From the IMG/VR virus record IMGVR_UViG_3300017917_000368, positions 1 through 49,144 of that record: 49,144 nt of DNA. The stretch is one strand, 5' to 3'. Positions 29,124 through 45,533 of the stretch are shown piece after piece (within the stretch, counting starts at the first letter, position 1; each line of letters begins with the position of its first letter). This DNA is from a virus. Below the pieces are notes generated by a model. That model searched no databases. It was not told where the DNA came from and saw only the letters and a program-made list of their open reading frames with translations. The translations under genes were made by a program, and so were the position numbers.

Positions 29124-29723
29124 ATGAAGAATTTTTTAGATTACCTTAGCGAAAACCAAAAAATTTATGAGTTTCGCATCAAAGTAGCTAACTGCGACCC
29201 TAAAGAAAAACTAGATGAGCTTAAAGCTGGTCTAGCAGGTTATGTAGTTGATAGTATTAGTGCACCTAAAACACTGCCAATTAAATCAAACGACATTGAT
29301 TTTCCTAGCATGACTAATTGCGAAATTTATTTAATGGATGCAACATTTAAATATCCAGTAAATGATGCGCAGTTACGTAGCATTGTAGCTGAACGTTTAG
29401 GATGTTCTGCAGCACAGGTTGTTGTTGTGAGCCCTAATCACCCAGAAGAACAACGTCGTTGGGATTTGCCAGGCAATGATGTGCGCGAATTTAAGCAAGG
29501 TGAGAATGTCCTGACACAGGCACTGCCAGAAGCTACAACAGAACAAAAAGCTGCCAGCAAGTTCTACAGTGAGGCAGGAACAATTTTAAAAGAGTTAAAC
29601 AAGCCAGCAACGTTTGAAATCGCTGGAAATGACCGCACCATTGGCGGCGAAAAAAACCCAGCAGATGGCAAAACAACTAATGATGTAGCAGTTGGTACAA
29701 AAAGCCCAGTAAAAGGACAATAA
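29124..29723 (+). CDS. Putative internal-head / prohead protein with capsid-targeting-like N-terminus
   Basis: From ATG 29124 the product has 199 residues and starts MKNFLDYLSENQKIYEF. This resembles the T4 capsid-targeting peptide MKTYQEFIAEA, with LSE|N in place of the IxE|A cleavage site. The body has an alpha/beta look (IYEFRIKVANCDPKEKLDEL, VDSISAPKTLPIKS, EIYLMDATFKYPV, LRSIVAERLGCSAAQVVVVS) like a small ferredoxin-type fold. The C-terminus is hydrophilic. It lies after terS and before another probable head protein, 4 bases away. Function unknown; a prohead core or packaged protein is inferred. Confidence 0.72.
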   Translation: MKNFLDYLSENQKIYEFRIKVANCDPKEKLDELKAGLAGYVVDSISAPKTLPIKSNDIDFPSMTNCEIYLMDATFKYPVNDAQLRSIVAERLGCSAAQVVVVSPNHPEEQRRWDLPGNDVREFKQGENVLTQALPEATTEQKAASKFYSEAGTILKELNKPATFEIAGNDRTIGGEKNPADGKTTNDVAVGTKSPVKGQ

Positions 29724-29727
29724 TAAA

Positions 29728-31560
29728 ATGAGCGATATGAAAATGTATAATATCTTAGGTGTATTCAACAACGTTGACCCTAAGACGACTCCTGCAGCGG
29801 AAGAAGCTAAAACAGAACCTACATACGAAAATGTTGAACCACGAGGCAGTATTATGGAAGCTGTTAAGAGCTTGGAAGAAAAATACCAGGGCTTTAAGAA
29901 AACAGTAGCCGCTATCGCCAAAGGCGGTAGTGCTGAAGATCCAGAGGCGGTAGCCGCCGCTATTGGTCGCAAAAAATATGGTAAGGCTAAGTTCCAAAAA
30001 GCTGCCGCCGCAGGTAAGAAACTAGGCGAAGCCGCTAAACCTGACTATATTGATCTAGACAAAGACGGCGACAAGACAGAGCCAATGAAAAAAGCTGCTA
30101 AAGATGCTAAAAAGAAAACTGATGAAGCAATTGATCCAGAACTACTTAAAGCTGCTGGTGTAGGTCTTGCTACTGGTGCGCTAATCCCTGCCGCTAGCAA
30201 CCTTGGCTATAAAGCAGCAGAAAAAATTGACAAATGGTTAGACAAACGTTCATCTGCAGCCGCTAAAAAAGAATATGAAGCAGAGCGTAAAGCTAGACTT
30301 GCTAAGAAATCTAAAAAAGTTGCTGAAGGTGAGTACGATCCAGCACCAATTGATCCGGAAGCAGTAGCTAAACGTAAACGTTTACAGGCATTAAAAGACA
30401 AGCAAGAAGATGAGCACGGTTACGATACTAAAAAATCAAACGTGCGCACAGTTAAAGGCAAAGCCTACGGTGGTGCCGCACAGAAAGACGATGCTGATGA
30501 TTTAGATGAAGTAGCACCTCCGGGCGCTAAAGCAGAACGCATGGTTAAACACATTAAGAAAGGCTATGCCAAAGACGGCAAACTAACTAAGAAAGAAAAA
30601 GGCATTGCCTACGCCACAGCATGGAAGGCACACAATAAAGGTAAATTAGAAGAAAGTCGTATGATACAAGAAGGCGACTATTTCTATGAAAAACTAGGTA
30701 AAGCACTAGCTGAAAAAGATCCTACATTAAACACAGCAGATTCAAGTTTCGTTACAGCAGTTCGTCAAGAAATGGTAGCGCAAGGTATCGAACCTAATCG
30801 TGCTCGTAACATTATTATGATGGACGACGATTTTATCAGCGACGTTGCTACATCATATGGCCACTACTGTAAAGAAATTGCAGAGTGCGGTATACCACAG
30901 AATAGTCATTTAGGTGGTGTAGAAGAGTTAGATGAGATTGCTCGTTTAGCTGGATTACCTCCAAAAGAAGAAGTTGATGAAGTTGCTCCGGCGTTGGCTG
31001 CCGTTGGTGCTGATTTAGCTGCAGCGGCTCCAGCTATTGCTGCAGTTTCAGCAATGAAAGACAGTGATCTGGAAGAAGGTAGCGATGAAGACTTAGCTGA
31101 AGAAGAAATGGGTGAAGGCAACGAGTTCTCTGGAGCACTAGCTCAAGCACGTGCTAGCGGTGCCAAAGAGTTTGAAGTAGACGGTAAGAAATACACAGTT
31201 AAAGAAGATGTAAACATTAATGTATCAGCTAACGGTGAATTTGATTCAATTAATTTAATTCGTCAACTTGCTGGCCTAAACACGTATCAAAATATTCTGG
31301 GATCAAAACAAGCAAGTGATAGCGGCCCGATTGATACAGACAGTCAAGACCTTGAAGTAGCAGAAGAACGCGATGTAGAGCACACAAATACACCACGCGA
31401 AGAAACTGCTGGACTTGATGCTGCTATTCCAACAGGTGCTGATTTAAATCGTGCCAAGAAACAGTACAAGAAAGAATATCCAGGTGACAACCCAATGGCT
31501 GTTAAAGAAGAAGCACTGTGGAAAGCATACGAAAGTATGATTAACGACGTCAAGAAGTAA
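29728..31560 (+). CDS. Lys/Ala/Glu-rich virion or scaffold-type protein
   Basis: A 610-residue, highly charged protein. Notable parts: KPDYIDLDKDGDKTEPMKKA (about 109-128), a frequent segment in proteins of T4-like environmental phages; AGVGLATGALIPAASNLGYK (about 144-163, hydrophobic); AERMVKHIKKGYAKDGKLTK and GIAYATAWKAHNKGK (about 270-307); then ESRMIQEGDYFYEKL, containing an IQE|G protease-like site. A run of Ala/Pro/Val (DEVAPALAAVGADLAAAAPA, about 415-435) precedes acidic stretches. Two motifs of the form IxxLAGL occur near residues 402 and 509. The composition resembles prohead core or internal head proteins. It follows the 29124 gene by 4 bases. Exact role unknown. Confidence 0.72.
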   Translation: MSDMKMYNILGVFNNVDPKTTPAAEEAKTEPTYENVEPRGSIMEAVKSLEEKYQGFKKTVAAIAKGGSAEDPEAVAAAIGRKKYGKAKFQKAAAAGKKLGEAAKPDYIDLDKDGDKTEPMKKAAKDAKKKTDEAIDPELLKAAGVGLATGALIPAASNLGYKAAEKIDKWLDKRSSAAAKKEYEAERKARLAKKSKKVAEGEYDPAPIDPEAVAKRKRLQALKDKQEDEHGYDTKKSNVRTVKGKAYGGAAQKDDADDLDEVAPPGAKAERMVKHIKKGYAKDGKLTKKEKGIAYATAWKAHNKGKLEESRMIQEGDYFYEKLGKALAEKDPTLNTADSSFVTAVRQEMVAQGIEPNRARNIIMMDDDFISDVATSYGHYCKEIAECGIPQNSHLGGVEELDEIARLAGLPPKEEVDEVAPALAAVGADLAAAAPAIAAVSAMKDSDLEEGSDEDLAEEEMGEGNEFSGALAQARASGAKEFEVDGKKYTVKEDVNINVSANGEFDSINLIRQLAGLNTYQNILGSKQASDSGPIDTDSQDLEVAEERDVEHTNTPREETAGLDAAIPTGADLNRAKKQYKKEYPGDNPMAVKEEALWKAYESMINDVKK

Positions 31561-31561
31561 C

Positions 31562-31657
31562 ATGACTATAAGGCTACACATAGAATATTTTTTAGTATGT
31601 TTGTGTGTAGCTTTACTAAAAAAATTACGCAAAGTTGTTAGACTATTTAATATATGA
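31562..31657 (+). CDS. 31-residue small hydrophobic protein, coupled to the next gene
   Basis: ATG at 31562 follows AAGAAG (end of the previous gene) at 5 bases. The peptide begins MTIRLHIEYFLVCLCVALL and continues KKLRKVVRLFNI: a short hydrophobic helix followed by a basic one, suggesting a membrane-binding peptide. Its TGA (31655-31657) overlaps the next ATG (31654-31656) as ATGA, a classic coupling junction. This fills an otherwise empty 93-base gap. It has not been recognised from any family. Confidence 0.5.
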   Translation: MTIRLHIEYFLVCLCVALLKKLRKVVRLFNI

Positions 31658-32007
31658 AGATAAGCGAAATTGTATCAGAAGGTAAAATGCGCAAAGGAGC
31701 TCGCCGCGCAATTCCTGACCTAAACAGCTATCCTAAATTAGATAATAATAACAATCCTTATCTAGCCTATCGATTTGGTATAGAATTAGCAGGCAGCCCT
31801 GATATTGATGCCGACGAACAAGGAGCATGGGGCAGCGAATTTGCAACCATTGGATACAGCGACGCCGACAGAGAAATAATTGACCATGCTAAACGAGCAT
31901 TTGGTATTTCTACTAAAAAACAATCAAACAAGCAGTCACAAGAATTACCTAATGCTGGCACAAAAAGTCCTGTAGCCACTCGTAAGAAAAACAAATACGG
32001 AGTGTAA
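31654..32007 (+). CDS. Putative packaged head protein with capsid-targeting-like N-terminus
   Basis: 117 residues starting MKISEIVSEGKMRKGARRAI. The first ten match the pattern M-[KR]-x(n)-hydrophobic-x-E-G shared by other proteins here and by T4 internal proteins. The body has LDNNNNPYLAYRFGIELAGS and EFATIGYSDADREIIDHAKR, a pattern I recall from small proteins of T4-like environmental phages of unknown function. The C-terminus is basic (KSPVATRKKNKYGV), as expected for a DNA-associated internal protein. The start overlaps the upstream micro-ORF stop (ATGA). Role inferred. Confidence 0.72.
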   Translation: MKISEIVSEGKMRKGARRAIPDLNSYPKLDNNNNPYLAYRFGIELAGSPDIDADEQGAWGSEFATIGYSDADREIIDHAKRAFGISTKKQSNKQSQELPNAGTKSPVATRKKNKYGV

Positions 32008-32008
32008 T

Positions 32009-32233
32009 ATGGATTTAGATCAGTTAAAACTTCTTGCTGGTATTACACACAACGTAGGACAACTACAAGAATATCGCGGCGAAGGCAGTATACACACAAG
32101 TGGCAGTAATATAAGTATCACCGCCAATGAAAAAATTCAATACCAACAACAAAACAATATTCAACCGGGCACTCCTGAATGGTTTCGCCTATGGTTTAGC
32201 AAACCGTACCTTACCTCAGAAAAACCCTGGTAA
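32009..32233 (+). CDS. Small virion-type protein
   Basis: 74 residues starting MDLDQLKLLAGITHNVGQLQ, where LKLLAGI is a version of the IxxLAGL motif in neighbouring head proteins. The C-terminus, NIQPGTPEWFRLWFSKPYLT, is a Trp-rich segment that I have seen in small proteins of T4-like environmental phages. It starts 1 base after the previous stop, so it is coupled, and belongs to the packaging/head operon. Function unknown. Confidence 0.68.
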   Translation: MDLDQLKLLAGITHNVGQLQEYRGEGSIHTSGSNISITANEKIQYQQQNNIQPGTPEWFRLWFSKPYLTSEKPW

Positions 32234-32253
32234 TTTAATATACAACAAAATCC

Positions 32254-32991
32254 ATGATAAGTATTATTATGGAACAACCTATACCCTATCACATTAATCA
32301 TCAATATCAAGGACAAACTGTGTATTGGTCCGGTAGTGACCGTAAAGATGTCTGGGAAAAAAATATAAAAAGTTCTAATAATTACGAATACTTAAAAAGT
32401 GCAGGCTGGGATAACGAGTACGCGATAGAATATAAATTTAATAGTCATGGATTTCGTGATGCAGAATTTGATCAGCGTGATAATTTTATTGCGATTGGTT
32501 GTAGCTTCACTGAAGGGGTAGGGTTAGGTAAAGATCAAATTTGGCCAACTAAACTTACTAATCTAGTAGGAACACATGTTTGGAATTTAGGAATAGGTGG
32601 CGCCGCCGCTGATACTTGTTTTAGAATTCTTGACTATTACATACAGACATTAAAACCAAAAGCAGTATTTTTTTTAGTGCCTCCGGTGATGCGAGTAGAA
32701 CTGCACTACGACGATAGAATTGAGTCACATCTTGCCAATGACGGACATGTATCAAATTTTGTTAAGCAATGGTTCGTATGCGAAGATAATGGCACTATAA
32801 ATAGATATAAAAATACACTAGCAATGAAACAAATTTGTTATACCGCTGGTGTTAATTTGTATGTTCAGGACAGTATATCTAACATGCTGGAAAACATAGA
32901 ATTAGCAAGAGATTTACTGCACCCCGGCGAAGAGTATCAGGATTATATTGCAAAATTATTTTATGAAGATTTTATAAATGGCAACAGGTAA
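32254..32991 (+). CDS. SGNH/GDSL-type hydrolase
   Basis: 245 residues with the SGNH blocks in order: FIAIGCSFTEG with nucleophile Ser84 (block I, GxS), NLGIGGAAADT (block II, 111-121), KAVFFLVPPVMR (block III region, about 136-147) and Asp220-LL-His223 (DLLHPG, block V). FNSHGFRD (63-70) is a common feature N-terminal to the block I Ser. The family comprises esterases and acetylesterases acting on lipids or on sugars such as acetylated polysaccharides. There is no signal peptide. It overlaps the gp17 start by 14 bases, so it is made together with terminase; a virion or surface-sugar deacetylase role is possible. An ATG at 32269 is an alternative start. Confidence 0.78.
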   Translation: MISIIMEQPIPYHINHQYQGQTVYWSGSDRKDVWEKNIKSSNNYEYLKSAGWDNEYAIEYKFNSHGFRDAEFDQRDNFIAIGCSFTEGVGLGKDQIWPTKLTNLVGTHVWNLGIGGAAADTCFRILDYYIQTLKPKAVFFLVPPVMRVELHYDDRIESHLANDGHVSNFVKQWFVCEDNGTINRYKNTLAMKQICYTAGVNLYVQDSISNMLENIELARDLLHPGEEYQDYIAKLFYEDFINGNR

Positions 32992-34546
32992 AGGTACAGA
33001 TAACGTTCTAGTTAAGAAGCCGCACCAAATTACGGCATTCACTAACGAGCAACTTCAGGAATTTGCAAAATGCGCTGATCCTGTCACAGGACCTGAGTAT
33101 TTTATGAGCAATTACTTCTACATACAACATCCTACCAAAGGACGTATGTTGTATACTCCTTTTGACTATCAACGACGTTTGATTGAAACATATCATATGT
33201 ACCGCTACAGTATATCACTGATGCCTCGACAAACAGGCAAATCAACAAGTGCCGCAGGTTACTTGTTATGGTACGCTATGTTTGTACCAGATAGTACTAT
33301 CCTAATTGCCGCGCACAAATTTACAGGCTCACAGGAAATCATGCAGCGTATTCGCTACGCTTACGAAAGCGTGCCGGATTTTATACGTGCTGGCGCTGTG
33401 AGCTACAACAAAGGTAGTATCGATTTTGACAATGGTAGTCGTATCGTAAGTGCCACAACCACAGAAAACACAGGTCGCGGTATGTCTATTTCACTACTAT
33501 ACTGTGACGAGTTTGCGTTCGTCCGCCCTACCATAGGACGAGAATTTTGGACTTCAATTAGTCCCACACTAGCAACTGGTGGTAAATGTATTATTACTTC
33601 AACACCTAACAGTGACGAAGATCAGTTTGCTACCCTATGGAAAGGTGCTAACAAGTGTTTTGATGAATTTGGTAACCCTACAGAAGTTGGAATCAATGGA
33701 TTCAAAGCATTTAGAAGCTACTGGAACGAACACCCTGACAGAGACGAAGCATGGGCCATGCAACAGCGAGCCCAATTAGGTGATGAACGTTTCCGCCGCG
33801 AGATGGACTGTGAGTTTATTATTTGGGACGAAACACTAATCAATCCTAGCCATCTAGTTGAACTAGCTGGGTTAGACCCAATAGAAAGACAAGGACAGGT
33901 GCGGTGGTATAAACGACCAGAAGCACAACACACCTATGTAGTAGCATTAGACCCTAGTCTAGGTACAGGTGGTGACCCAGCAGGCATACAAATCTTTGAA
34001 TTGCCTACATTTAAGCAAGTAGGAGAGTGGCAACACAATCGCACTCCTGTGCAACAGCAGGTGGGTATCTTAGCTGAAATTATTAAATATATTTCCGAAA
34101 CAGTTAATCCTAACAATATCTATTATTCCGTGGAAAATAACACTCTAGGCGAAGCTGCACTTATATCAATAAGCGAAATTGGTGAAGAAAACATCAAAGG
34201 TATTTTTCTAAGCGAGCCTAAACGTGCCGGTGCCACTCGTAGATATCGTCGAGGATTTAATACCACAAACTCAACTAAAATCTCAGCGTGTGCCAAACTT
34301 AAAAATCTAATTGAGAGTAAGCGCATGACTATTGTGAGTAAGCCACTTATATCAGAACTTAAAACATTTGTGGCCAGCGGCTCTAGTTATGCTGCCAAAC
34401 CAGGCGAAACTGACGACCTGGTTATGGCACTTATATTAGTGGTTCGTATGGCTATGTTATTACAGAGTTTTGATAGTCAGATTGATTACACTATGAAAGA
34501 TAGTTTAGAAGATGTCGTTGAGCCAATGCCGTTCTGGGTAGTTTAA
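32978..34546 (+). CDS. 17: Terminase large subunit, gp17-like
   Basis: The 522-residue packaging motor. Walker A PRQTGKST (residues 83-90, the R/QTGKST form of T4-like terminases), Walker B LLYCDE (173-178), coupling motif IITSTPNS (about 205-212) and the nuclease domain opening VVALDPSLGTGGDPAGI with Asp325 are visible; EENNTLGE-like VENNTLGEAAL and GETDDLVMALILV supply further nuclease acidic residues. T4 gp17 has 610 residues. It packages DNA by headful and cuts concatemers. The start overlaps the SGNH hydrolase. A late promoter for the next gene lies directly at its stop. Confidence 0.95.
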   Translation: MATGKGTDNVLVKKPHQITAFTNEQLQEFAKCADPVTGPEYFMSNYFYIQHPTKGRMLYTPFDYQRRLIETYHMYRYSISLMPRQTGKSTSAAGYLLWYAMFVPDSTILIAAHKFTGSQEIMQRIRYAYESVPDFIRAGAVSYNKGSIDFDNGSRIVSATTTENTGRGMSISLLYCDEFAFVRPTIGREFWTSISPTLATGGKCIITSTPNSDEDQFATLWKGANKCFDEFGNPTEVGINGFKAFRSYWNEHPDRDEAWAMQQRAQLGDERFRREMDCEFIIWDETLINPSHLVELAGLDPIERQGQVRWYKRPEAQHTYVVALDPSLGTGGDPAGIQIFELPTFKQVGEWQHNRTPVQQQVGILAEIIKYISETVNPNNIYYSVENNTLGEAALISISEIGEENIKGIFLSEPKRAGATRRYRRGFNTTNSTKISACAKLKNLIESKRMTIVSKPLISELKTFVASGSSYAAKPGETDDLVMALILVVRMAMLLQSFDSQIDYTMKDSLEDVVEPMPFWVV

Positions 34547-34554
34547 GATAAATA
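34547..34554 (+). promoter_or_regulatory. Late promoter GATAAATA, start predicted at the ATG
   Basis: The octamer begins at the base after the gp17 stop and ends 5 bases before the ATG at 34560. With T4 spacing the transcript would begin at the A of ATG, giving a leaderless message. Confidence 0.75.
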
Positions 34555-34559
34555 ATGTT

Positions 34560-36809
34560 ATGAGAGAAATTAACAAAATTGCAGAAGGCCTGTTTGAAAA
34601 AATTCGTGACAGATTTGAGGATGTCAGCTTGGGTGACGAAAATGCCAACGCTACGCAAAATCCAGAAAATGCACGTTTTTTCAACTTTGACTATGTAGTT
34701 GATGGACAAAACTACGGTAATATCACACTTAGTGTTATCGATGAAACTAGTCTTAAAGTTTATTTTAGTAAAAATATAAGTCGCGATTTAACTGGTGAAG
34801 AAAAGAAAAATTGGTACAGTTTCTTGCGCGAGTTACGCGAATTTGCTAAACGCAACCTCCTAAGTTTTGAACCACGAGATATTACTCGTTCAACGTTAAA
34901 ACACAGAGATATTCAGCAAGTCAGCAAGGCTGATAGCACATACGACAAAGACGAAGTCATTGGCGAAAGTCGTTTGTACGGCACAAGTCGCAGTAGTTAT
35001 GAAAATGATGGCCCTGTGCGTATTATAATTCGTCACAGCGATCAAATTAATCCCGAACAACCTGGTGCACGTAGCCGTAAAATTCGTGCCATGTACTTGG
35101 AAAACACTGACGGTGAACGACGTAAACTGCCTTACAACAACCTACGCTACGCTCGTGCTATGGCACGCCATGTGTCTGAAGGTGGGTCAATAGAAGATGA
35201 ATTTGGTCAACACATCACTGGCATTGCAGAAGAATGTGCAAAATTAAAACCATTTAAAGCCGCAATAGTGCGCAGAGTATTTGAGGATGAAGAAACTCAG
35301 CGTATGGTAGAAGCTGCATTCGAGTATCATAGCCTACTTAGAGATACACTGAATAAATTAAGTGGTCGCAAAGGCTATAAACAATGTAAAGAACAGTTTG
35401 TAGCAACCAGCACCAGCTATATTCCAGAAGATGATTTTGACGCAGATAGTATGCGTGAACGCTTCGTAAAACGTACCTATAACGATCACATGAACGATGC
35501 GTTACCTATTGTTCACAAAGCCTACAATTTAAAGAAAACTAATAAAATGGCAGAAGCCTTTGAAAGTTGGGCTAATCAACTTGCAGAAGGTACATGGGCT
35601 CTACCCGAAAATGATGACGAAATTAATAAACTTATTGAATTAATGAAACAACCATTAGAAGCTGGAGTAGATGCAGAGAATGCCAGTAGTGCGCTATACA
35701 ATTTACTAGGCGATGATCAGCTATTTAACGACTTAGACGAAATCGCACAACAGCAAGGACCTGAAGTAGATGTGCGTGAAGTTATTTTTAATTGGCTAGA
35801 AAGTAATCACCCTGACCTAGCAGAAAAAGTAAGTCAGGCAATTGACCAAACTGAACCAGTGGCAGAAATGTCAGACACAGGCGACACATCATTTGACAAG
35901 ATGTCGAGACGCGAATTATTAGATTATTTAAATTTAGATATGCTACAAGCACAGCATTATTCAAATGAACAATTACGTGCCGCAGCAGAGGAAAAATCAT
36001 ACGATATGACAGAAAATTACGACGCTATGTCACCACATGACAGCTCAAGTCCACTTACACACATGCGTGAAGATGACTATGATCAAGATCAAGTTGAATC
36101 TATTGCTTCAGCAATCGTACGCAGAATTCTAAACAACATTGGTCAACACAAAGAATTATTAATGAAAGCGGGTCCAGAAGGCGTGTTAAATGCTGCAAAA
36201 GATGTAGCAAGTTTTCACGTACCAGTAGAAGAACTAGGCTCAAGTGACATCAGCGGCATGATTAGAGAAGTATACCGTGAAGTTGGTGTAGACTATCCAG
36301 AAATGAATGAAGCAGACGGTGCACCATTACGTAAAACAGCAAGTCCAAGTAAAAAAGCACGCGATGCAAAATATTATGATTATCTAGCAAGAACATTAGG
36401 CGAAGGAAAAGTAAAAGAAGTCAGTATAGATCTTGAAGAACTGACAGACGAAGAATTCAAGGCAAAATATGGCAAGACCAAGGAAGAGATAAAACAAGCA
36501 CTGTCAGAAGGTCTAACAGGCTTACAAAAATTTGGTGCTGGCGCAGCTATGATTGGTGCACTAGCAGGTAACGCATATATGGATAACAAAGCAGTTGAAG
36601 CAAGTCCACAGATGCAAAAATTGGAACAACTATATCAACAAGCATTGGCTAATAATGACACAGCAAAGGCAGATGAATTGGAAGATAGAATTGAAAATTT
36701 AAGAGCAAGAATAGAATTAGGCAAAGGCGAAGTAGTAGACAAAGAAGGTAATCCTATAGAACCAAAATACGAAAGTATAGATGATATAAAAAAACTAGCA
36801 GGCTTATAA
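34560..36809 (+). CDS. Large virion-type protein with capsid-targeting-like N-terminus
   Basis: 749 residues starting MREINKIAEGLFEKIRDRFE; the first ten fit the M-[KR]-...-I-A-E-G pattern of T4 targeting peptides (IAE|A). Residues 1-115 form an alpha/beta domain (DYVVDGQNYGNITLSVID, KVYFSKNI, NWYSFLRELREFAKRN). Residues 150-215 hold a second conserved-looking part (VRIIIRHSDQINPEQPGARS-R, YNNLRYARAMARHVSEGGSI). The middle and C-terminal parts are helical and acidic, with a hydrophobic stretch FGAGAAMIGALAGNAYM (about 658-674), a coiled coil (QKLEQLYQQALANNDTAKAD) and the C-terminal motif SIDDIKKLAGL. I recall such proteins as virion structural proteins in T4-like environmental phages. Likely in the head or ejected; function unknown. 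Confidence 0.78.
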   Translation: MREINKIAEGLFEKIRDRFEDVSLGDENANATQNPENARFFNFDYVVDGQNYGNITLSVIDETSLKVYFSKNISRDLTGEEKKNWYSFLRELREFAKRNLLSFEPRDITRSTLKHRDIQQVSKADSTYDKDEVIGESRLYGTSRSSYENDGPVRIIIRHSDQINPEQPGARSRKIRAMYLENTDGERRKLPYNNLRYARAMARHVSEGGSIEDEFGQHITGIAEECAKLKPFKAAIVRRVFEDEETQRMVEAAFEYHSLLRDTLNKLSGRKGYKQCKEQFVATSTSYIPEDDFDADSMRERFVKRTYNDHMNDALPIVHKAYNLKKTNKMAEAFESWANQLAEGTWALPENDDEINKLIELMKQPLEAGVDAENASSALYNLLGDDQLFNDLDEIAQQQGPEVDVREVIFNWLESNHPDLAEKVSQAIDQTEPVAEMSDTGDTSFDKMSRRELLDYLNLDMLQAQHYSNEQLRAAAEEKSYDMTENYDAMSPHDSSSPLTHMREDDYDQDQVESIASAIVRRILNNIGQHKELLMKAGPEGVLNAAKDVASFHVPVEELGSSDISGMIREVYREVGVDYPEMNEADGAPLRKTASPSKKARDAKYYDYLARTLGEGKVKEVSIDLEELTDEEFKAKYGKTKEEIKQALSEGLTGLQKFGAGAAMIGALAGNAYMDNKAVEASPQMQKLEQLYQQALANNDTAKADELEDRIENLRARIELGKGEVVDKEGNPIEPKYESIDDIKKLAGL

Positions 36810-36832
36810 TTCCTAGGGATGGGAAGGGAGTT

Positions 36833-36859
36833 AGGACACTTAGGTGTCCTTTCTTTTTG
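36833..36859 (+). terminator. Intrinsic terminator
   Basis: AGGACAC (36833-36839) pairs with GTGTCCT (36844-36850) around TTAG, followed by TTCTTTTT. It separates the head/packaging operon from gp32. Confidence 0.85.
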
Positions 36860-36889
36860 GCTAAAAATATTTAAAATTATCTCTTGTGA

Positions 36890-36897
36890 GATAAATA
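36890..36897 (+). promoter_or_regulatory. Late promoter GATAAATA upstream of gp32
   Basis: The octamer overlaps a small inverted repeat TTATCTC-TTGT-GAGATAA (36877-36894). The predicted start, about 36903, coincides with the first base of the candidate pseudoknot in the gp32 leader. Confidence 0.75.
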
Positions 36898-36902
36898 ACA
36901 TT

Positions 36903-37994: not shown

Positions 37995-38003
37995 CATTTT
38001 TAA

Positions 38004-38630
38004 ATGTTTAGCAGGATAGACGAAATAATCTTTCCAAATCGCTGTGAGGTAATAGAAATACAAGCCTCACAGCGATATATCTATCCCATTTTTAAAAATG
38101 GTAGTACATCTATCTTTGAGTATGCATATCAACAAAAGTATAAAATTCTTTTTAATAATCAAATTGCACGAGCAAAAATAATAGACGTTGTACTGCGCGA
38201 TCCGGTCGATAGGTACATATCTGGATTCAACACGTTTGTCTATAATACTAAGCGTGAAAATCCTGGTTTAGATTTAGATACTATTATCTATTTTGCTAAA
38301 ACCTATTTGTTTTTAAATAGACACTATACACCTCAGCTTTTTTGGTTAGAGCATCTTAGCAAATATGCCAACCCTGATACAATATTACAACTACGCGGAA
38401 TGGATTCAATTGTAGCTTATTCGCCGTTGAACATAGGGCCCAAACAAGAATTTATATTAACTAACTCGTTGGTTGATGATTTGGTCAATGATATACATGT
38501 TAAAACATATCTAGAGTTAGACAATATTTTACTGTCTATGATCGATTCTAATCTAACCTATAATGAAATAATGAAATGCATTAAAAATCAGCATCCGGCA
38601 GGGTACGCAAAATGTATTGCCCAAGATTAG
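38004..38630 (+). CDS. Sulfotransferase-like protein
   Basis: 208 residues with the two PAPS-binding elements of the sulfotransferase superfamily: YPIFKNGSTSIFEYA (residues 27-41, 5'-phosphosulfate loop of the PKNGSTS type) and VVLRDPVDRYISGFNTFV (62-79, 3'-phosphate motif RDPxxRxxSGF). The family transfers sulfate from PAPS to sugars, peptides or lipids. It is short compared with many family members (about 250-300), so the acceptor domain is reduced. It starts 10 bases after gp32 and overlaps the following radical-SAM gene by 19 bases, pointing to a joint function. It has no signal peptide and acts in the cytoplasm. Substrate unknown. Confidence 0.78.
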   Translation: MFSRIDEIIFPNRCEVIEIQASQRYIYPIFKNGSTSIFEYAYQQKYKILFNNQIARAKIIDVVLRDPVDRYISGFNTFVYNTKRENPGLDLDTIIYFAKTYLFLNRHYTPQLFWLEHLSKYANPDTILQLRGMDSIVAYSPLNIGPKQEFILTNSLVDDLVNDIHVKTYLELDNILLSMIDSNLTYNEIMKCIKNQHPAGYAKCIAQD

Positions 38631-39496
38631 ATCATTTTGTTAGATTAAATTCAAATGGTACAATCAGTCGGTGTGGACACATGACACGTCAGCCTCAATT
38701 TGCTACACTAGAATCTATGGACACTAGCGAATGGTTACACGGTGTTCGGGAACACATGGCACAGGGCATATGGCCCGTTGAGTGTGAACGCTGTATGGAA
38801 ACCGAACAAGCTAACGGCACTAGTATTAGAATAAATTCTATAAATTTTGACAAGCTACAAAAGAAAAAAGATTATCTAATAGTTGGTGGTGTTTTAGACA
38901 ATGTGTGCAATAGTGCTTGTTTAACCTGCGATGAGCAACACAGTACTCTAATTGGTGGCTTGACGTCAAAAACGTATCCTATTGTGGATAATTCAAGTAA
39001 GTTTTGGGACTTACCACTGGATAGAGTCGTGCATTTAGATATAAATGGTGGCGAGCCTAGTCATAGTAAAAACTATAAACACATTCTAGCAAACTTGCCC
39101 CCTAGTATTAAGTCAGTAAGACTTAACACAAACTGTAGTACAGTGTTAGAGGAACTTTGGCCGTTGTGTGAGCGCGGAGTACAGGTAACTGTAACTGTTA
39201 GTCTAGATGGAATTGGTCCAGTACATGACTTCGTGCGCTGGCCTGTCAAGTGGGATAAGTTCTATGTTAACCTAAAACGTTACATGGAGATGCCTGTTAG
39301 GCTAAACACATGGACCACAGTAAGTGCATTAAATGTTGATGATTTACCTAATATTCTAGCATTTGTCAAAGAACATAAGTTAGATCACAGCTATGCCTAT
39401 CTCAAAGATCCAGTTGAATTAGCAGTTGAAAATAAAGATACTCCAGAGTTTATAGCATACATACAAAAACAAAAGCAGTTAAGAGGTATTGAATAA
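38612..39496 (+). CDS. Radical SAM protein 1
   Basis: 294 residues. The [4Fe-4S]-SAM motif is CNSACLTC (Cys99, Cys103, Cys106, CX3CX2C), followed by VVHLDINGGEPSHSKNY (GGEP motif) and VTVTVSLDGIGPVHDFVRWP. N-terminal Cys3, Cys21, Cys58 and Cys61 (MYCPRL, SRCGHM, CERC) may bind a second cluster, as in twitch/SPASM-type proteins. Such enzymes carry out radical chemistry, often on peptides. The overlap with the sulfotransferase-like gene suggests one pathway. A related but distinct radical-SAM gene lies 1.4 kb away, beyond uvsX. Proteins of this type occur in T4-like environmental phages; their reaction is not known to me. Confidence 0.85.
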   Translation: MYCPRLDHFVRLNSNGTISRCGHMTRQPQFATLESMDTSEWLHGVREHMAQGIWPVECERCMETEQANGTSIRINSINFDKLQKKKDYLIVGGVLDNVCNSACLTCDEQHSTLIGGLTSKTYPIVDNSSKFWDLPLDRVVHLDINGGEPSHSKNYKHILANLPPSIKSVRLNTNCSTVLEELWPLCERGVQVTVTVSLDGIGPVHDFVRWPVKWDKFYVNLKRYMEMPVRLNTWTTVSALNVDDLPNILAFVKEHKLDHSYAYLKDPVELAVENKDTPEFIAYIQKQKQLRGIE

Positions 39497-39527
39497 TAGT
39501 AATTTTAACCAAAACATAATCAAAATA

Positions 39528-39556
39528 TTGAAAATAGTTAACAAGTATGTTACACT
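39528..39556 (+). promoter_or_regulatory. Sigma70-type promoter for uvsX
   Basis: TTGAAA (39528-39533), 17-base spacer, TACACT (39551-39556). No late octamer is present between the radical-SAM gene and uvsX, which fits early or middle expression of a recombination gene. Confidence 0.7.
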
Positions 39557-39592
39557 ATTAAAGACATCTTACATTTAGAGAGGCAACAATTT

Positions 39593-40663
39593 ATGTCAAC
39601 AAAACCATATGATTTTTCAAAACTTAGAAAGAGTCTAACCAAAAGCATTGATGGACTTAGTTTTGGCTTCAACGACCCAACAGACTGGGTTAGTACAAAC
39701 AACTACGCATTAAACTACTTAATCAGCGGTGACTTTAATCGAGGAATCCCATTAGGTAAAGTAACAGTGTTTGCTGGTGAATCTGGTGCAGGCAAATCAT
39801 ATATCTGTTCAGGTAACCTAATTAAAAATGCTCAAGCACAAGGCATCTTTCCTATCCTAATAGATACAGAGAATGCACTTGACGAAGCATGGTTACAAGC
39901 ACTAGGTGTAGACACCGGTGAAGATAAGTTGATGAAAGTAAATATGGCTATGATCGATGACGTGGCTAAACTTATCAACGATTTCGTTAAAGAATACAAA
40001 ACACTACCCGAAGATGATCGTCCAAAAGTATTGTTTGTTTTAGACAGTTTGGGCATGTTACTAACACCAACTGATGTTAATCAGTTTGAAGCAGGCGACT
40101 TGAAGGGTGATATGGGCCGTAAGCCCAAGGCACTGACAGCCCTAGTTCGTAACTGTGTAAACATGTTTGGTAGTTTAAACATTGGTCTTGTTGCAACTAA
40201 TCATACATATGCCAGTCAAGATATGTTTGATCCAGATGATAAGATTTCAGGTGGTCAGGGCTTTATCTATGCTTCAAGTATTGTTGTTGCTATGAAGAAA
40301 TTGAAGTTGAAAGAAGATGAAGATGGTAACAAGATTTCAGAAGTTAAAGGTATTCGTGCTGGTTGTAAAATTATGAAGACCAGATATGCTAAACCTTTTG
40401 AAAGTGTACAGGTTAAAATTCCTTATGAGACAGGTATGAATCCATACTCAGGTCTAGTAGATATGTTTGAGGGTAAAGGATTATTAGCCAAAGACGGTAA
40501 CAGTCTTAAATACACACTAGCAGACGGTACAGTTATTAAACAGTTCCGCAAAGCGTGGGAACGCAACGAAGAAGGTAGTTTAGACAAAGTCATGGAAGAC
40601 TTTACTAAAAATCCACATAGAGATGCTAAATCTGCAACCATTGAAGAGGATGTAACAGAATGA
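39593..40663 (+). CDS. uvsX: UvsX, RecA-like recombinase
   Basis: 356 residues; T4 UvsX has 391. Walker A GESGAGKS (62-69), ILIDTENALDEAWLQALGVD, Walker B VLFVLDSLGMLLTP, the L1/L2 area (DMGRKPKALTALVRNCVNMF, then VATNHTYASQDMFDP, DKISGGQGFIYASSIVVAMK) are all typical. It forms filaments on ssDNA and drives strand exchange and recombination-dependent replication, working with gp32. It has a sigma70-type promoter, and its stop overlaps the next ATG (ATGA). It is embedded between two radical-SAM genes. Confidence 0.95.
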   Translation: MSTKPYDFSKLRKSLTKSIDGLSFGFNDPTDWVSTNNYALNYLISGDFNRGIPLGKVTVFAGESGAGKSYICSGNLIKNAQAQGIFPILIDTENALDEAWLQALGVDTGEDKLMKVNMAMIDDVAKLINDFVKEYKTLPEDDRPKVLFVLDSLGMLLTPTDVNQFEAGDLKGDMGRKPKALTALVRNCVNMFGSLNIGLVATNHTYASQDMFDPDDKISGGQGFIYASSIVVAMKKLKLKEDEDGNKISEVKGIRAGCKIMKTRYAKPFESVQVKIPYETGMNPYSGLVDMFEGKGLLAKDGNSLKYTLADGTVIKQFRKAWERNEEGSLDKVMEDFTKNPHRDAKSATIEEDVTE

Positions 40664-40905
40664 GTATTGAAATTGATGTAGTTGGGGAAGTTTGGTTAAC
40701 TTGTAAAGAATATATCAATCCTAAGGATCGTCAAGCGGCAGCCGATCATCTTATTAGTGTTGTTGCAGACCATAACATCTTAGAACGTGATTTAAAGGCT
40801 GTAGGTGGTACAGACAGCTATCTTAAACGTGCAGTCGAAGAGTATCTAGGCGAAGAAGTAGAAGAGCCCGATTACGACGACGATGAAGAAGACGACAACT
40901 ATTAA
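40660..40905 (+). CDS. Small acidic protein coupled to uvsX
   Basis: 81 residues. The N-terminal 60 are helical (VVGEVWLTCKEYINPKDRQA, DHLISVVADHNILERDL), and the C-terminus is extremely acidic (EEVEEPDYDDDEEDD). The start overlaps the uvsX stop as ATGA, and its own stop overlaps the next start. A small acidic protein in this place is common next to uvsX in T4-like environmental phages as far as I recall. It might modulate UvsX or a replication partner; that is inference from position only. Confidence 0.75.
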   Translation: MSIEIDVVGEVWLTCKEYINPKDRQAAADHLISVVADHNILERDLKAVGGTDSYLKRAVEEYLGEEVEEPDYDDDEEDDNY

Positions 40906-42077
40906 TGACTGATCGCAATTACTATTGTAACATGAAGTTCCGTATGATGAAAATTGATGCGGAACGAAAACTTGCGTATAATTGCGATCCTGCAACGCCG
41001 TATCCTATTGACTTTGTCTGGTTAGAGGAAAATCCTGGACAGCTATTTAACACTCCTCGAGTAGTACATGAGCGAGAACTAATGCTGAATAATCAAAGAA
41101 ATTCTAGTTGCGAAAATTGCTGTTTCCGTGCTGAAGATGTTGGAGCAGTAAGTCCTAGAATAACACGCCGGGGATATAATAAAACACATCACGAAACAGT
41201 TACTCAACCTGAAATAATAGATTTTACCATCGGAAGTGACTGTAATCTAACTTGTTCGTACTGTGTAAAAGAATATAGTAGCGCCTGGCGCAGAGATTTA
41301 CTAAACAACGGTGATTACGCCATTGACTTTGAAGATGATAGATACACTATCAATATTAAAGATCGTGTTATGGAGAAGAATAGTCAACCTACTAGGGTTG
41401 GGTCTAAACACTTTCAGCAGATAATCAATGAGTTGGAATTGATGGCACCATCTTTAAAGAGTATGGATATCACCGGCGGCGAACCTATGTTAAATAATAG
41501 TCTACTAGATATAATTGATAGAGTTAAGCAAGTTCCTGATATTAAAATATTTACAGGGCTAGGAGTAGATATTAAGCGCCTTGCTAACATCTTAGTAAAA
41601 TTAAAAGAATATCCTAACGTTAGACTAGCAGTAAGCGCCGAAAGTGTGGAAAAGATTCACGAGTTTAACCGATACGGAGTGAAATGGGATGATTTCCTTC
41701 AAAAAATCAACTTAATAAAACAGCACAATATATATTTTAGTTTTCACTCTACGCTATCAAACTTAACTGTTATTAGTTATTGTAAGTTTAGAAATCTGTT
41801 TGCAGATATTTATAGCGAATTTGAAATGGTGTATAAGCCAGATTTTATGGCAGTATACGTGTTAGACGATCAAACAAAAGATTTTGTAATACAAGATTTA
41901 GAAAAATCAGAAATACAAAATAAGGAACAGATAATTCAAAGCATCATGGCTTCCCCAACTGAACTTCAAAAAAACAATATTAAGAAATTTTTAAAAGAAT
42001 TTACTAGGCGGAGACCCGATCTTGATGTTACAATATATCCTAAAGAGTTTTTAGATTGGATTGAATATGTGGTATAG
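40905..42077 (+). CDS. Radical SAM protein 2
   Basis: 390 residues. IGSDCNLTCSYCVKEYSSAW holds the radical-SAM motif (Cys113, Cys117, Cys120), and MDITGGEPMLNNSLL holds GGEP. N-terminal Cys8, Cys27, Cys69, Cys72 and Cys73 (CENCC) may ligate an auxiliary cluster. RLAVSAESVEKIHEFNRYGV-KW corresponds to SLDGIGPVHDFVRWPVKW of radical SAM protein 1, so the two are paralogues that have diverged strongly. The ATG shares its first base with the stop of the uvsX-linked small gene, so it is co-transcribed with uvsX. The C-terminal part is helical and extends into the next gene by 11 bases. Substrate unknown. Confidence 0.87.
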   Translation: MTDRNYYCNMKFRMMKIDAERKLAYNCDPATPYPIDFVWLEENPGQLFNTPRVVHERELMLNNQRNSSCENCCFRAEDVGAVSPRITRRGYNKTHHETVTQPEIIDFTIGSDCNLTCSYCVKEYSSAWRRDLLNNGDYAIDFEDDRYTINIKDRVMEKNSQPTRVGSKHFQQIINELELMAPSLKSMDITGGEPMLNNSLLDIIDRVKQVPDIKIFTGLGVDIKRLANILVKLKEYPNVRLAVSAESVEKIHEFNRYGVKWDDFLQKINLIKQHNIYFSFHSTLSNLTVISYCKFRNLFADIYSEFEMVYKPDFMAVYVLDDQTKDFVIQDLEKSEIQNKEQIIQSIMASPTELQKNNIKKFLKEFTRRRPDLDVTIYPKEFLDWIEYVV

Positions 42078-42522
42078 CCGAATTGTATCTAGCCTGGGTA
42101 ATATTCCTGACTTTATTGAGTATTACGAAAATGAACTGAATCATGCTAAGAAAGAAGTGGGTACCTACGGCAACATTGAAAAAAATCTAGCTAACTTACC
42201 GGGCATTACAGAGCATCGTTTCAATCAACTGCAAGAAATTGAAGCGGTGCTCAACTATCTTAATATACAGCTACGTAAAATACGTCAAACACACTACAAA
42301 AAATATCTAGAAGCATATGCTAGAGCATTGACAAGTCGCGACGCGGAAAAATATGCTGAGGCAGAAGATGAAGTTATTGATATGGAAACTATCATTAACG
42401 AAGTAGCACTCTTACGTAACAAATGGTTAGGTATTATGAAAGGCCTGGAAAGTAAGAACTTTATGCTAGGGCACATTACTCGACTGCGTACAGCAGGCAT
42501 GGAGGATGCATCAGTTGGCTAG
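42067..42522 (+). CDS. Helical protein, possible UvsY-like recombination mediator
   Basis: From ATG 42067 the product has 151 residues (MWYSRIVSSLGNIPDF...). It is almost wholly helical: YYENELNHAKKEVGTYGNIE, EHRFNQLQEIEAVLNYLNIQ, LRKIRQTHYKKYLEAYARAL, TIINEVALLRNKWLGIMKGL. Size, helical content and location 1.4 kb after uvsX fit UvsY, which loads UvsX onto gp32-coated ssDNA (137 residues in T4), and I recall proteins with this sequence style labelled UvsY-like. The direct motif match is weak. A TTG six bases earlier could also start it. It overlaps genes on both sides. Confidence 0.6.
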   Translation: MWYSRIVSSLGNIPDFIEYYENELNHAKKEVGTYGNIEKNLANLPGITEHRFNQLQEIEAVLNYLNIQLRKIRQTHYKKYLEAYARALTSRDAEKYAEAEDEVIDMETIINEVALLRNKWLGIMKGLESKNFMLGHITRLRTAGMEDASVG

Positions 42523-43417
42523 ACACAGCGAGACTATACTGTCAGAAATTCGCAATTATGACGCATTTTTAGATAGTCTACGGAATATTGCTGACATGGG
42601 TTGTGGCACCGGCGAAGATATACATTGGTGGGCTACATTAGAGACTCGCGACGATCCGCCTAAGCCATATAACTTTAATTGCTTTGCCATTGACACAAAT
42701 GAATCAAAATTATCTCAGGTTCCTAACCTACCTAATATTCACAAATATAATAATAACTTTAGTGCCTATCCAATATTTCCTGTAACCATAGATCTAATGT
42801 GGGCTCATGACAGTTTGCAATACAGTCATAATCCACTAGAAACACTTAAAGCATGGAATAAATCAATGACGGTTAATGGTATGCTAGTAGTAAGTATACC
42901 TCAAACCAATGGAGTTGAATACAACAGGTATTACAGTAGAACGTATGAACACTGTTTTTATAATTATACTCCTACTAGTCTAATTTATATGCTAGCAGTC
43001 AACGGGTTTGACTGTAAAGATGCATATTTACTAAAACGGTTCCAAGACCCGTGGATACAAATGGCAGTGTATAAAAGTGGTATAGAGCCAATGGATCCAG
43101 CTACTACCACATGGGAAGATTTAATCGAAACAGATTTGTTACATCCTACTGTAGTTAATAGCATTCGTAAACATGGACACATTCGTCAAGAAGAAATTAT
43201 AATGCCATGGTTAGATCGGGAAAATTATTATATTGATTGGGTTCCTCAAGCGACAGTAATACCACCAGAAGCAGAAACCATAGTTACAGGTGTATTTAAT
43301 ACCACCGAGGAATCAGTAAAACAACAAGTTCGTCAGAGAAAAAAATCCACAGTAGAAACTACCTTACTGAAACCAGTGGGTATTATACGCCCACCAAAAG
43401 AACGTTATGTTAAATAA
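42506..43417 (+). CDS. SAM-dependent methyltransferase
   Basis: 303 residues. Class I methyltransferase motifs: IADMGCGTGEDIHWWA (motif I, about 27-42), NCFAIDTNESKL (motif II, about 58-69), IDLMWAHDSLQYSHNPLETL (about 93-112, motif IV region) and MTVNGMLVVSIPQTN (post-IV strand). Residues 150-303 include LIYMLAVNGFDCKDAYLLKR and a hydrophilic C-terminus. This arrangement is like small-molecule or sugar methyltransferases, such as those tailoring polysaccharides, rather than DNA methyltransferases (no DPPY-type motif seen). Overlaps both neighbours, so it belongs with the radical-SAM and nucleotidyltransferase genes. Confidence 0.82.
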   Translation: MHQLARHSETILSEIRNYDAFLDSLRNIADMGCGTGEDIHWWATLETRDDPPKPYNFNCFAIDTNESKLSQVPNLPNIHKYNNNFSAYPIFPVTIDLMWAHDSLQYSHNPLETLKAWNKSMTVNGMLVVSIPQTNGVEYNRYYSRTYEHCFYNYTPTSLIYMLAVNGFDCKDAYLLKRFQDPWIQMAVYKSGIEPMDPATTTWEDLIETDLLHPTVVNSIRKHGHIRQEEIIMPWLDRENYYIDWVPQATVIPPEAETIVTGVFNTTEESVKQQVRQRKKSTVETTLLKPVGIIRPPKERYVK

Positions 43418-44147
43418 AGTAGTGTTAGTTACAGGTGGTTTTGATCCTTTGCACTCGGGTCATATTCAATACTTTCAAGATGCTCGACGTTTAGGCGATA
43501 TGCTGGTAGTTGGAGTCAATAGCGATGCTTGGCTTGAACGTAAAAAGGGTCGTGCGTTTATGCCCAGCAATGAGCGCATTACTATCATACAAAATCTTAA
43601 AATGGTTGACCACTGTATATTGTTTAATGATGACGATGACAGTGCCCGCGAAGCTATTCGAAACGTTAAAAGCATGTATCCTAATAGCCAGATTATTTTT
43701 GCCAACGGCGGTGACCGCACGGCTAAAAATATACCTGAAATGACGGAACCAGACGTAGAGTTTGTGTTTGGTGTTGGTGGCGAAAATAAAATGAATAGTA
43801 GCAGTTGGATACTAGAAGAGTGGAAAGCACCTCGCACAGAACGTCCTTGGGGGTATTATCGTGTACTACATGAAGTACCGGGTACCAAAGTTAAAGAACT
43901 AACCATTAACCCTGGAAAGTCGCTTACCATGCAACAACACTATGAGCGTGCCGAACATTGGCACGTAGCATATGGCATGTGTCAGGTTGAATTAGATAAT
44001 CAGACATTTACCTTACAACATCACGATCACTATCATGTTGAACCCGAACAATGGCATAGACTACATAATCCTTTTACTGTTCCTTGCCGCATAGTTGAAA
44101 TACAGTACGGCGACTATTGTGGCGAAGATGATATTGAACGCAGATAA
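43407..44147 (+). CDS. Cytidylyltransferase-cupin fusion (sugar nucleotide enzyme)
   Basis: 246 residues in two domains. Residues 1-140 form a cytidylyltransferase-type domain: VVLVTGGFDPLHSGHIQYF with HxGH (residues 16-19), GDMLVVGVNSDAWLERKKGR and MPSNERITIIQNLKMVD (the ISTxER-like region). Residues about 142-246 form a cupin like the phosphomannose isomerase part of ManC: RTERPWGYYRVLHEVPGTKV-KEL, SLTMQQHYERAEHWHVAYG, FTLQHHDHYHVEPEQWHRLH and CRIVEIQYGDYCGEDDIER, with the metal-binding histidines. A fusion of these two activities suggests synthesis of an activated sugar or polyol phosphate. It overlaps the methyltransferase gene by 11 bases and ends the operon. Confidence 0.85.
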   Translation: MLNKVVLVTGGFDPLHSGHIQYFQDARRLGDMLVVGVNSDAWLERKKGRAFMPSNERITIIQNLKMVDHCILFNDDDDSAREAIRNVKSMYPNSQIIFANGGDRTAKNIPEMTEPDVEFVFGVGGENKMNSSSWILEEWKAPRTERPWGYYRVLHEVPGTKVKELTINPGKSLTMQQHYERAEHWHVAYGMCQVELDNQTFTLQHHDHYHVEPEQWHRLHNPFTVPCRIVEIQYGDYCGEDDIERR

Positions 44148-44150
44148 ATA
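44143..44150 (+). promoter_or_regulatory. Late promoter GATAAATA
   Basis: Overlaps the stop of the fusion gene and ends 21 bases before the ATG at 44172. TACAC (44149-44153) can pair with GTGTA (44164-44168), which overlaps the AAGGTG ribosome site; the predicted start near 44156 excludes the left arm, a weak version of the gp13 design. Confidence 0.82.
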
Positions 44151-44171
44151 CACTAATAACAAGGTGTAGAC

Positions 44172-45533
44172 ATGAGATTTTACGATTTACTTCCAGAGGC
44201 TAAAGGTATTTTTGGCCGCCTTCCGGGCGATACTTTTTTAAATGTTGATGGTAAAGCATTTAACTTTGTTGCCGCTACAGCGTTCCCAGCCGCTGAAGAT
44301 GTTAAATTTCCTACCCCACAAGATCGAGATGCGGCTATTGCAGAATTTGAAAAAAATGCCAACGCAAAAATTCAATGGACAAATAATCCAACTGGTAGTG
44401 CATTTGCAGTTGCTGAACTAGACGACGAAGACGGTGGACGTGTATTCTGGGGTAGGTACCTGCAACAGACTAAACACAACATGTTAGGCGTTTGGTCAAA
44501 CAAAGATATTCCTGCAGGATGGAAACTTGCCACTAAAGGTGCACAAAAGTTGCAGGCCGGTTTTGACCCGCAGAATCTTATCAAAACAGAACAAGTTTTT
44601 ACCAGTGTCAATCAGTTAATACAAACAGTATCTGCTAACAGTCCAGAACCGGTTAAACAAGTGTTCACAGAAAACCTACAAAATTTAGCCTCAGGACAAG
44701 GTGCAGTGGTATTTCCGGGCATGGCACCTCAAATGGAAGCCATACGTGACTATTTTGGCGAAATCATGCAACCAGTGGCACTAATGGGTGGAGTAATTGG
44801 TGGACAAGCAGAGGATGCACGACAAGTTCTAGCTGGTGGTGCGCCATGGAACAGATGCCGTGTTCAGTTTCCAATGGCAATGAATGCCGCACTGTGCGAT
44901 AGTTTTTTAATTGCACCTAATGGACAAGAAATTGGTATTAGCAGTAAGGGCGGTAGCGGAGCTAAAGCTAGTGCTAAGAATTTGTATGATGCCTACAAAA
45001 AAGCACAAGCAGATGGAAATACTGAACTAATACAAACTGCTAAGTTTGCTATTGATACAGTAATAGTCATTGCTGACAATTCAGCACTGGTAGGACCATT
45101 TAAATTAGGAATGCTATTAGGCATCCCCGGAATCACTGCCGAATTGTTAAACGAAGTAGAACTGTACATCAAAACAGGCAAAACAGATTTTAACGGTATA
45201 ACCAGAGATGCAAGAACAATAATGGCACCTTACACAGTTAAACCTGATGTAGTAGGGTTTAATACAGGTTATGCTATTATGTCGGCTGTTGCTAAAACTG
45301 TAGCAAGTGCTGTTAATGCTAACCCAGAATTCAGCAACGGTGCACTAGCTTTACTGAACCAATCAAGTATTATTCAAATCTATACAAAGATGGCAAAGAA
45401 AGCCAACGATGCAGTACTAACTAGTTTTACGGCTGTCTACCCACCAAATTTTGAAGGCCACGTTATGATGGATGGCGGTAAGAATTACTATAGCTCTCGT
45501 ATCGGTGGAAAATTAGCATTTTATTTCAAATAA
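44172..45533 (+). CDS. Probable packaged protein with a nuclease-like patch
   Basis: 453 residues starting MRFYDLLPEAKGIFGRLPGD; the first ten fit the capsid-targeting pattern with LPE|A as a gp21-type cleavage site. The body is alpha/beta. Residues 240-262, ALCDSFLIAPNGQEIGISSK then GGSGAKAS, show Asp243, Glu253 and Lys259 on what could be a beta hairpin, recalling the D...E...K layout of PD-(D/E)XK nucleases, though the spacing is not canonical. The C-terminal half is helical (FNTGYAIMSAVAKTVASAVN) and ends GHVMMDGGKNYYSSRIGGKL-AFYFK. The gene is a one-gene late unit with AAGGTG ribosome site. A protein packaged in the head and injected with DNA is plausible; function unproven. Confidence 0.7.
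   Translation: MRFYDLLPEAKGIFGRLPGDTFLNVDGKAFNFVAATAFPAAEDVKFPTPQDRDAAIAEFEKNANAKIQWTNNPTGSAFAVAELDDEDGGRVFWGRYLQQTKHNMLGVWSNKDIPAGWKLATKGAQKLQAGFDPQNLIKTEQVFTSVNQLIQTVSANSPEPVKQVFTENLQNLASGQGAVVFPGMAPQMEAIRDYFGEIMQPVALMGGVIGGQAEDARQVLAGGAPWNRCRVQFPMAMNAALCDSFLIAPNGQEIGISSKGGSGAKASAKNLYDAYKKAQADGNTELIQTAKFAIDTVIVIADNSALVGPFKLGMLLGIPGITAELLNEVELYIKTGKTDFNGITRDARTIMAPYTVKPDVVGFNTGYAIMSAVAKTVASAVNANPEFSNGALALLNQSSIIQIYTKMAKKANDAVLTSFTAVYPPNFEGHVMMDGGKNYYSSRIGGKLAFYFK

Follow-up and report, generated by a model that had tools for sequence, protein, structure and literature searches.

Do the similar N-termini of four otherwise unrelated proteins mark them as cargo of a phage head, as the targeting peptides of the T4 internal proteins do? 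The question is raised by IMG/VR record IMGVR_UViG_3300017917_000368, a partial record of 49,144 bases (the whole of it being the window), which holds late genes of an uncultured T4-related phage, among them those of head and tail. The four proteins, named here by the position of their start codon, begin with MKNFLDYLSEN (29124), MKISEIVSEG (31654), MREINKIAEG (34560) and MRFYDLLPEA (44172), and a first-pass annotation had taken these starts for T4-type prohead-targeting peptides cut after the Glu. Comparative evidence bears this out for 31654 and 44172 and, to a moderate degree, for 29124; it does not for 34560, which failed a test of the T4 register and has a predicted helix running through the site. 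In our judgement the window probably encodes an enlarged version of the T4-type cargo system, which probably includes a second signal, at the C-terminus, that mimics the scaffold.

The four starts read as originally described, and the pattern M[KR]x(4-6)[LIV]xE[AGN] matches these proteins and none other among 46 curated window proteins. Expected matches are 0.09 under a position-specific composition null and 0.08 under within-protein shuffling, with four or more matches in 0 of 5000 and 0 of 3000 trials, respectively; moreover, four of the five proteins starting with Met-Lys or Met-Arg match, compared with 3 of 252 interior Met-Lys/Arg sites (Fisher 1e-6). A chance origin of the four starts is ruled out by these three nulls. 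All four are also kept in G001, a 188,801-base relative syntenic with the window (gp23 96%, terminase 91% identical), and a similar start pattern is enriched in G001 (6 matches, 0.58 expected) and in a further relative, G011 (6, 0.66 expected). A broad hydrophobic-x-Glu (hxE) pattern lacking the basic residue is clearly enriched in G001 only, and weakly in a few others. The bodies behind the starts are unrelated, as had been stated (best BLASTP E among bodies 0.2); none of the four has a Pfam match above cut-off, and neither a search for solved-structure relatives nor Foldseek against the PDB returned any. A short GTKSPV motif near the C-terminus is common to the 29124 and 31654 proteins, with the variants SPVKG and SPVAxxKKNKYGV in orthologs.

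In T4 IPIII the first ten residues suffice, residues 4 and 7 acting in targeting and residues 8 and 10 in processing; Asp at position 10 stops processing but not targeting, and gp21 cuts after L/I-x-E (PMC9026906). A register test was built from these data, asking for hydrophobic residues at P7 and P4, an aliphatic residue at P3 and Glu at P1. Applied to T4, it returned IPII, IPIII and two open reading frames (ORFs) fitting gp24 and Alt by size and position, with 7 matches in all against 3.9 expected; applied to the window, it was passed by 29124, 31654 and 44172 (3 against 0.36 expected, P 0.005). These starts resemble those of IPI, IPII and IPIII (PMC9026906) in their basic residue 2, their hydrophobic P7 and P4 and their L/I/V-x-E, and the system as a whole in having unrelated bodies behind similar starts and a gp21-type protease in the clade. 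Unlike the T4 internal proteins, however, the bodies are unrelated to theirs, the peptides of 31654 and 44172 are one residue shorter, large proteins bear such peptides in the clade, as do enzymes in the relatives, and some of the cargo has a scaffold-like C-terminal tail.

The strongest case is 44172. An alignment of 16 sequences shows no change at Arg2 or Glu9, only hydrophobic residues at positions 3, 6 and 7, and Ala or Ser at position 10; variation across residues 3-8 is nonetheless double that of the body (2.13 and 1.03 bits), giving variants such as RFYDLLPE, RAREFLKE, RANQFITE, RLQHILLE and RDLIEIVTE. In the AF2 model (mean pLDDT 82) residues 1-9 are disordered and confidence rises soon after. 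For 31654, 12 of the 13 distinct orthologs retain MK(I/V)xE(I/V)(I/V)xE and all 13 a hydrophobic-x-E, the peptide is followed by a linker variable in length and sequence, and in G001 and G011 the corresponding slot is filled by much diverged bodies with a 31654-type start. Alignments of both families, together with the model of 44172, thus give good support to the view that each start behaves as a free-standing targeting and cleavage peptide, in 44172 separate from the fold. The alternative that all such starts are amphipathic N-terminal helices, belonging to the folds or binding portal, tail, membrane or RNA polymerase, with hxE[AGS] incidental, looks true for 34560 and, given the conserved residues on both sides of the site, might hold for 29124; it is contradicted by the separation of peptide and fold in 44172 and 31654, and the invariant Glu, small P1' and free P2 of 44172 (eight different residues at position 8) are more readily explained by a protease site than by the surface of a helix. 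We regard it as unlikely for the set.

Residues 167-453 of 44172 have a weak fold similarity, from the VIA second look only, to PD-(D/E)XK restriction enzymes (MspI, Z 3.8, 162 aligned, 5.4 Å; HincII, 2.8; MvaI, 2.6), and residues 11-120 are weakly like a barrel of the EF-P/CarD/Mfd-RID type (Z up to 4.4); Foldseek of the model against the PDB gave no match. D243 and K259 are invariant, with Ser at 257 where D/E would be expected (S257-S258-K259), so that the model and alignment make a nuclease possible. No homologs were found among 50,697 phage records, by hidden Markov model in PA5oct, RaK2, Atu_ph07, Phosso, T4 and Vibrio 2.275, or by a motif scan of seven genomes; BFVD gives a fold match in Atu_ph07. 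Directly after 44172 lies an 80-residue protein (45593-45835) with an omega-like RNA_pol_Rpb6 domain above the Pfam cut-off (E 7.5e-7).

The start of 29124 matches the T4 register in kind (K2, F4, Y7, L8, E10), and all its homologs retain the hydrophobic targeting residues. The P1 Glu is present in 16 of 17 near orthologs and replaced in RaK2 (Asp), Phosso (Ser) and PA5oct (Ala); P1' is Asn, Thr or Val in most orthologs and Ala, Gly or Ser in 4 of 17. From these alignments a targeting peptide is moderately supported. The residues for targeting and for processing, separated in T4 by mutagenesis, thus appear to be separately conserved in nature; this split mirrors that of T4 and would equally be expected if the start were part of the fold.

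For 34560, P7 is an invariant Glu (residue 3) and P4 a nearly invariant Lys (residue 6); a helix predicted at low confidence for residues 4-18 spans the site, the residues just past it are invariant, Asp replaces Glu in five near orthologs, and cultured homologs have no comparable N-terminal site. The charged residues at P7 and P4, the predicted helix and the lack of the Glu in cultured homologs leave targeting by this start unsupported, and going by model and alignment it probably belongs to the N-terminal helix of a domain. The same features weigh on the proposal that all four proteins are exact analogs of the T4 internal proteins, targeted to the prohead, cut after Glu and injected in mature form. 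It draws on the pattern common to the four starts, their retention in G001 and the similar starts of T4 IPII and IPIII; against it stand the failed register, invariant flank and siteless cultured homologs of 34560 and the mostly Asn, Thr or Val P1' of 29124, and we hold it to be quite improbable.

At its other end, 34560 carries what may be a different signal. Its C-terminus YESIDDIKKLAGL (IDDIKKLAGL) is of the kind that closes the gp22 scaffold in this clade, defined as a C-terminal hxxI(K/R)(K/R)(L/I)(A/S)G(L/I) and seen in G001 as NVIDIKRLAGLK, in PA5oct as VEELRRLAGIK, in Atu_ph07 as INDLKRLAGIKK and in Phosso as IHELRRLAGIEK; the gp22 end also keeps it in Vibrio 2.275 and, in weaker form, in RaK2, 121Q and CBB. 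In 34 distinct orthologs of 34560 the tail is kept while the preceding region cannot be aligned, as judged by eye, and among all clade loci (3259 ORFs of at least 60 residues) the expression matches only four families, namely 34560, gp22, an amidoligase and a 373-residue protein. On this similarity the tail is a probable second signal, which would recruit cargo through whatever the gp22 tail binds. That the tail is instead a common short helix or a remnant of protease processing, shared by chance or old recombination and with no recruiting role, is a serious possibility, if not the one we would choose: the link to gp22 is one of sequence similarity, and gp22 of T4 and HTVC008M has no LAGL-type tail. 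The restriction to gp22 and three other families, the retention at the gp22 ends of the cultured phages and the survival of the tail in 34560 beside an unalignable region speak for a recruiting role. If real, a scaffold-tail signal on cargo would be new, one that T4 gp22 does not show, the N-terminal peptides being new members of the T4-type class; the parts of the literature on gp22 and targeting sequences that were accessible describe no scaffold tail on cargo.

Relatives extend both signals to enzymes. An island at 159-175 kb of G001 encodes a Fe/Mn superoxide dismutase (159708; Sod_Fe_N and Sod_Fe_C both above cut-off, Sod_Fe_C 1.4e-22) starting MRARDFLTE/S, the slash marking the putative cut, and an amidoligase with both a peptide start, MRYSQIKQALRE/A, and the tail IKRLAGLV; further starts in the island are MKPSEFINE/S, MRAKQFTRRVNE/G and MVTKLLE/G, and neighbours include NT5C and ferritin-like domains. 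Near relatives keep MRAxxFLTE/S at their dismutase loci, with adjoining genes starting MKPSEFLNE/G or MKASDFLNE/A, whereas distant loci vary. T4 Alt is an earlier example of an enzyme that is packaged and has a signal at each terminus; gp21 processes both of its ends, which also gives C-terminal processing a precedent (PMC9026906). Alt is, however, an ADP-ribosyltransferase, unlike the amidoligase. Phrase searches of the literature on phage superoxide dismutase gave animal-virus papers only. In the same island an untagged ferritin/Dps-like protein (172842-173285, minus strand; Ferritin 1.3e-17) lies beside the MKPSEFINES protein.

Virion evidence comes from the deposited PA5oct record (NC_071039), whose annotations include electrospray tandem mass spectrometry (ESI-MS/MS) notes on four homologs or analogs: gp333, starting MKINDIITE/G; gp223, an ortholog of the G001 dismutase (42% identical) starting MNDSIKKYISIAE/A (Sod_Fe_C 1.2e-21; Sod_Fe_N 26.9 bits, just below the cut-off of 27); gp282, the homolog of 29124; and gp278, that of 34560. 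Unlike the window proteins, gp278 and gp282 have no N-terminal Glu site, and no 44172 homolog was found in PA5oct. The prediction that the shared start denotes packaged cargo thus finds backing through relatives only, by way of the notes on the homologs of 29124 and 34560, and for 34560 the start is not supported as the signal.

Several observations weigh against the cargo system that we favour. The regular expression was fitted post hoc to the four proteins, so that tests outside the window, such as the enrichment in G001 and G011, weigh more; strict start patterns show no enrichment in RaK2, Phosso or HTVC008M. The view that LAGL-type tails are incidental draws on the lack of a clear excess of them in PA5oct, RaK2 and G011. 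No homolog of 44172 or 31654 has virion evidence. Since gp282 and gp278 are marked by mass spectrometry without a Glu site, the site is dispensable for presence in the virion, and among PA5oct proteins so marked the strict tag shows no significant enrichment (2 of 93 against 2 of 295, P 0.24) and a looser one only a weak excess (11 of 93 against 15 of 295, P 0.026).

Three of the four genes, 29124, 34560 and 44172, are preceded by a late-promoter-like box, as are their orthologs in G001 and G011. This octamer, GATAAATA, is a single-base variant of the T4 late box TATAAATA; the window has 11 copies where 2.8 would be expected, each of them lying 5-82 nt ahead of a start codon (1576, 2386, 3846, 18898 on the minus strand, 20463, 25877, 26601, 29093, 34547, 36890 and 44143), and from its placement it is likely to be a late promoter of this phage group. 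It also precedes the tagged amidoligase of G001; 31654 has no box of its own. The ATG is the first in frame for 31654, 34560 and 44172. For 29124 a mechanical caller had chosen TTG 29091, which we rejected: the box overlaps this codon, making ATG 29124 the likely start.

Taken as a mechanism, the cargo proteins would be late products, most of them expressed from a promoter of their own, and would enter the prohead core while the shell is still open. One route of recruitment would be the T4-type N-terminal peptide of 9-10 residues (29124, 31654, 44172), with its basic residue 2, hydrophobic P7 and P4, L/I/V at P3 and Glu at P1; the other would be the gp22-like C-terminal tail (34560), and the G001 amidoligase would use both. 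Where the site is present, a gp21-type protease would cut after the Glu and free the mature cargo (44172, 31654); where the Glu is replaced, as in some 29124 homologs, the peptide would target and stay on. Cleavage after Glu in this phage is suggested by the site sequences, and packaging by analogy with the relatives; injection into the host would be a conjecture drawn from T4. More tentatively, and with some doubt on our part, the two signals could form a two-ended code. Many unrelated proteins, enzymes among them (superoxide dismutase, amidoligase and perhaps a nuclease), would then enter the head, and through it reach the host, by means of an N-terminal tag that can be cleaved off, of a copied scaffold tail at the C-terminus, or of both. 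The sequence rule would predict which proteins of uncultured T4-related phages are head cargo. One such prediction, that phage heads carry an antioxidant enzyme, already has a virion mass-spectrometry note beside it in the PA5oct record.

The capsid side of the system was followed from the gp23 gene at the left end of the window (Pfam Gp23 E 5e-98) and from G001; the large-terminase-like gene at 32978 was read from sequence and has a syntenic counterpart in G001. By gp23 and gp22 the closest cultured relatives are the jumbo phages Phosso, Vibrio 2.275, PA5oct, CBB, 121Q, RaK2 and Atu_ph07. gp21 was not found in the partial window; G001 encodes a gp21-type (S77) prohead protease (E 8.5e-30). 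In G001, whose sequence also includes a scaffold of the gp22 type and the complete start of gp23, portal and scaffold genes adjoin gp23, and by analogy those of the window phage would fall beyond the left end. The capsid frame runs without a stop from ATG 53 back to the left end, so that the ORF 53-1138 is internal, and reads ETKDALLE/GLQG; with the full G001 start MTTQLLE/GRWNETKDALLE/GLQG, this agrees with the earlier assignment of LLE/G to the gp21 type of site, and hxE/G stands at the matching place in gp23 of PA5oct, 121Q, CBB, RaK2, Vibrio 2.275 and Atu_ph07. Cleavage-type sites are frequent in the gp22 scaffold of G001 (12 against 2.2 expected) and in the 610-residue core-like protein of the window (6 against 2.6; ortholog 9 against 3.7), which also has the internal motifs LDEIARLAGL and INLIRQLAGL; the G001 ortholog of the 74-residue protein carries VDLRRLAGM. 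In the heads of the giant phages SPN3US and phiKZ a gp21-related protease removes propeptides after x-x-E, and the SPN3US paralogs gp53 and gp54 have identical N-termini (PMC5694885); the propeptides of these giant phages, however, are often longer than 100 residues, and the SPN3US motif is A-x-E. Coordinates are collected in Table 1; gene calls in unannotated genomes were mechanical and missed some starts.

Table 1. Features of the window, with the evidence or grading for each
Feature	Position	Strand	Evidence or grading
LLE/G cleavage-type site, N-terminal region of gp23-like major capsid protein	17..28	+	sequence
GATAAATA box before 29124	29093..29100	+	kept before orthologs in G001, G011
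N-terminal tag MKNFLDYLSE	29124..29153	+	moderate case
199-residue virion-type protein	29124..29723	+	phrog_14802 E 7e-4
610-residue core-like protein, several hxE/[AGS] sites	29728..31560	+	sequence
N-terminal tag MKISEIVSE	31654..31680	+	strong case
117-residue protein	31654..32007	+	sequence
74-residue protein, N-terminus MDLDQLKLLAGI like scaffold tail motif	32009..32233	+	sequence
GATAAATA box before 34560	34547..34554	+	kept in G001, G011
MREINKIAE start	34560..34586	+	weak case, probably N-terminal helix of domain
749-residue virion-type protein	34560..36809	+	phrog_13484 E 1e-17
C-terminal tail SIDDIKKLAGL	36774..36806	+	common to clade's gp22 scaffold
GATAAATA box before 44172	44143..44150	+	kept in G001, G011
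N-terminal tag MRFYDLLPE	44172..44198	+	strongest case
453-residue cargo candidate	44172..45533	+	alignment, model; weak fold similarity to PD-(D/E)XK enzymes

Other genes of the window were recorded in passing. Two radical-SAM-like genes (38612-39496 and 40905-42077) lie among the structural genes, with several related ones in G001, and a single gene (43407-44147) fuses cytidylyltransferase-like and mannose-6-phosphate-isomerase/cupin domains. Directly after an S-adenosylhomocysteine hydrolase gene (46045-47334) stands a Gram-negative porin gene (47412-48653; Porin_4, E 1.3e-25), which could be phage-borne or mark a junction with host DNA.

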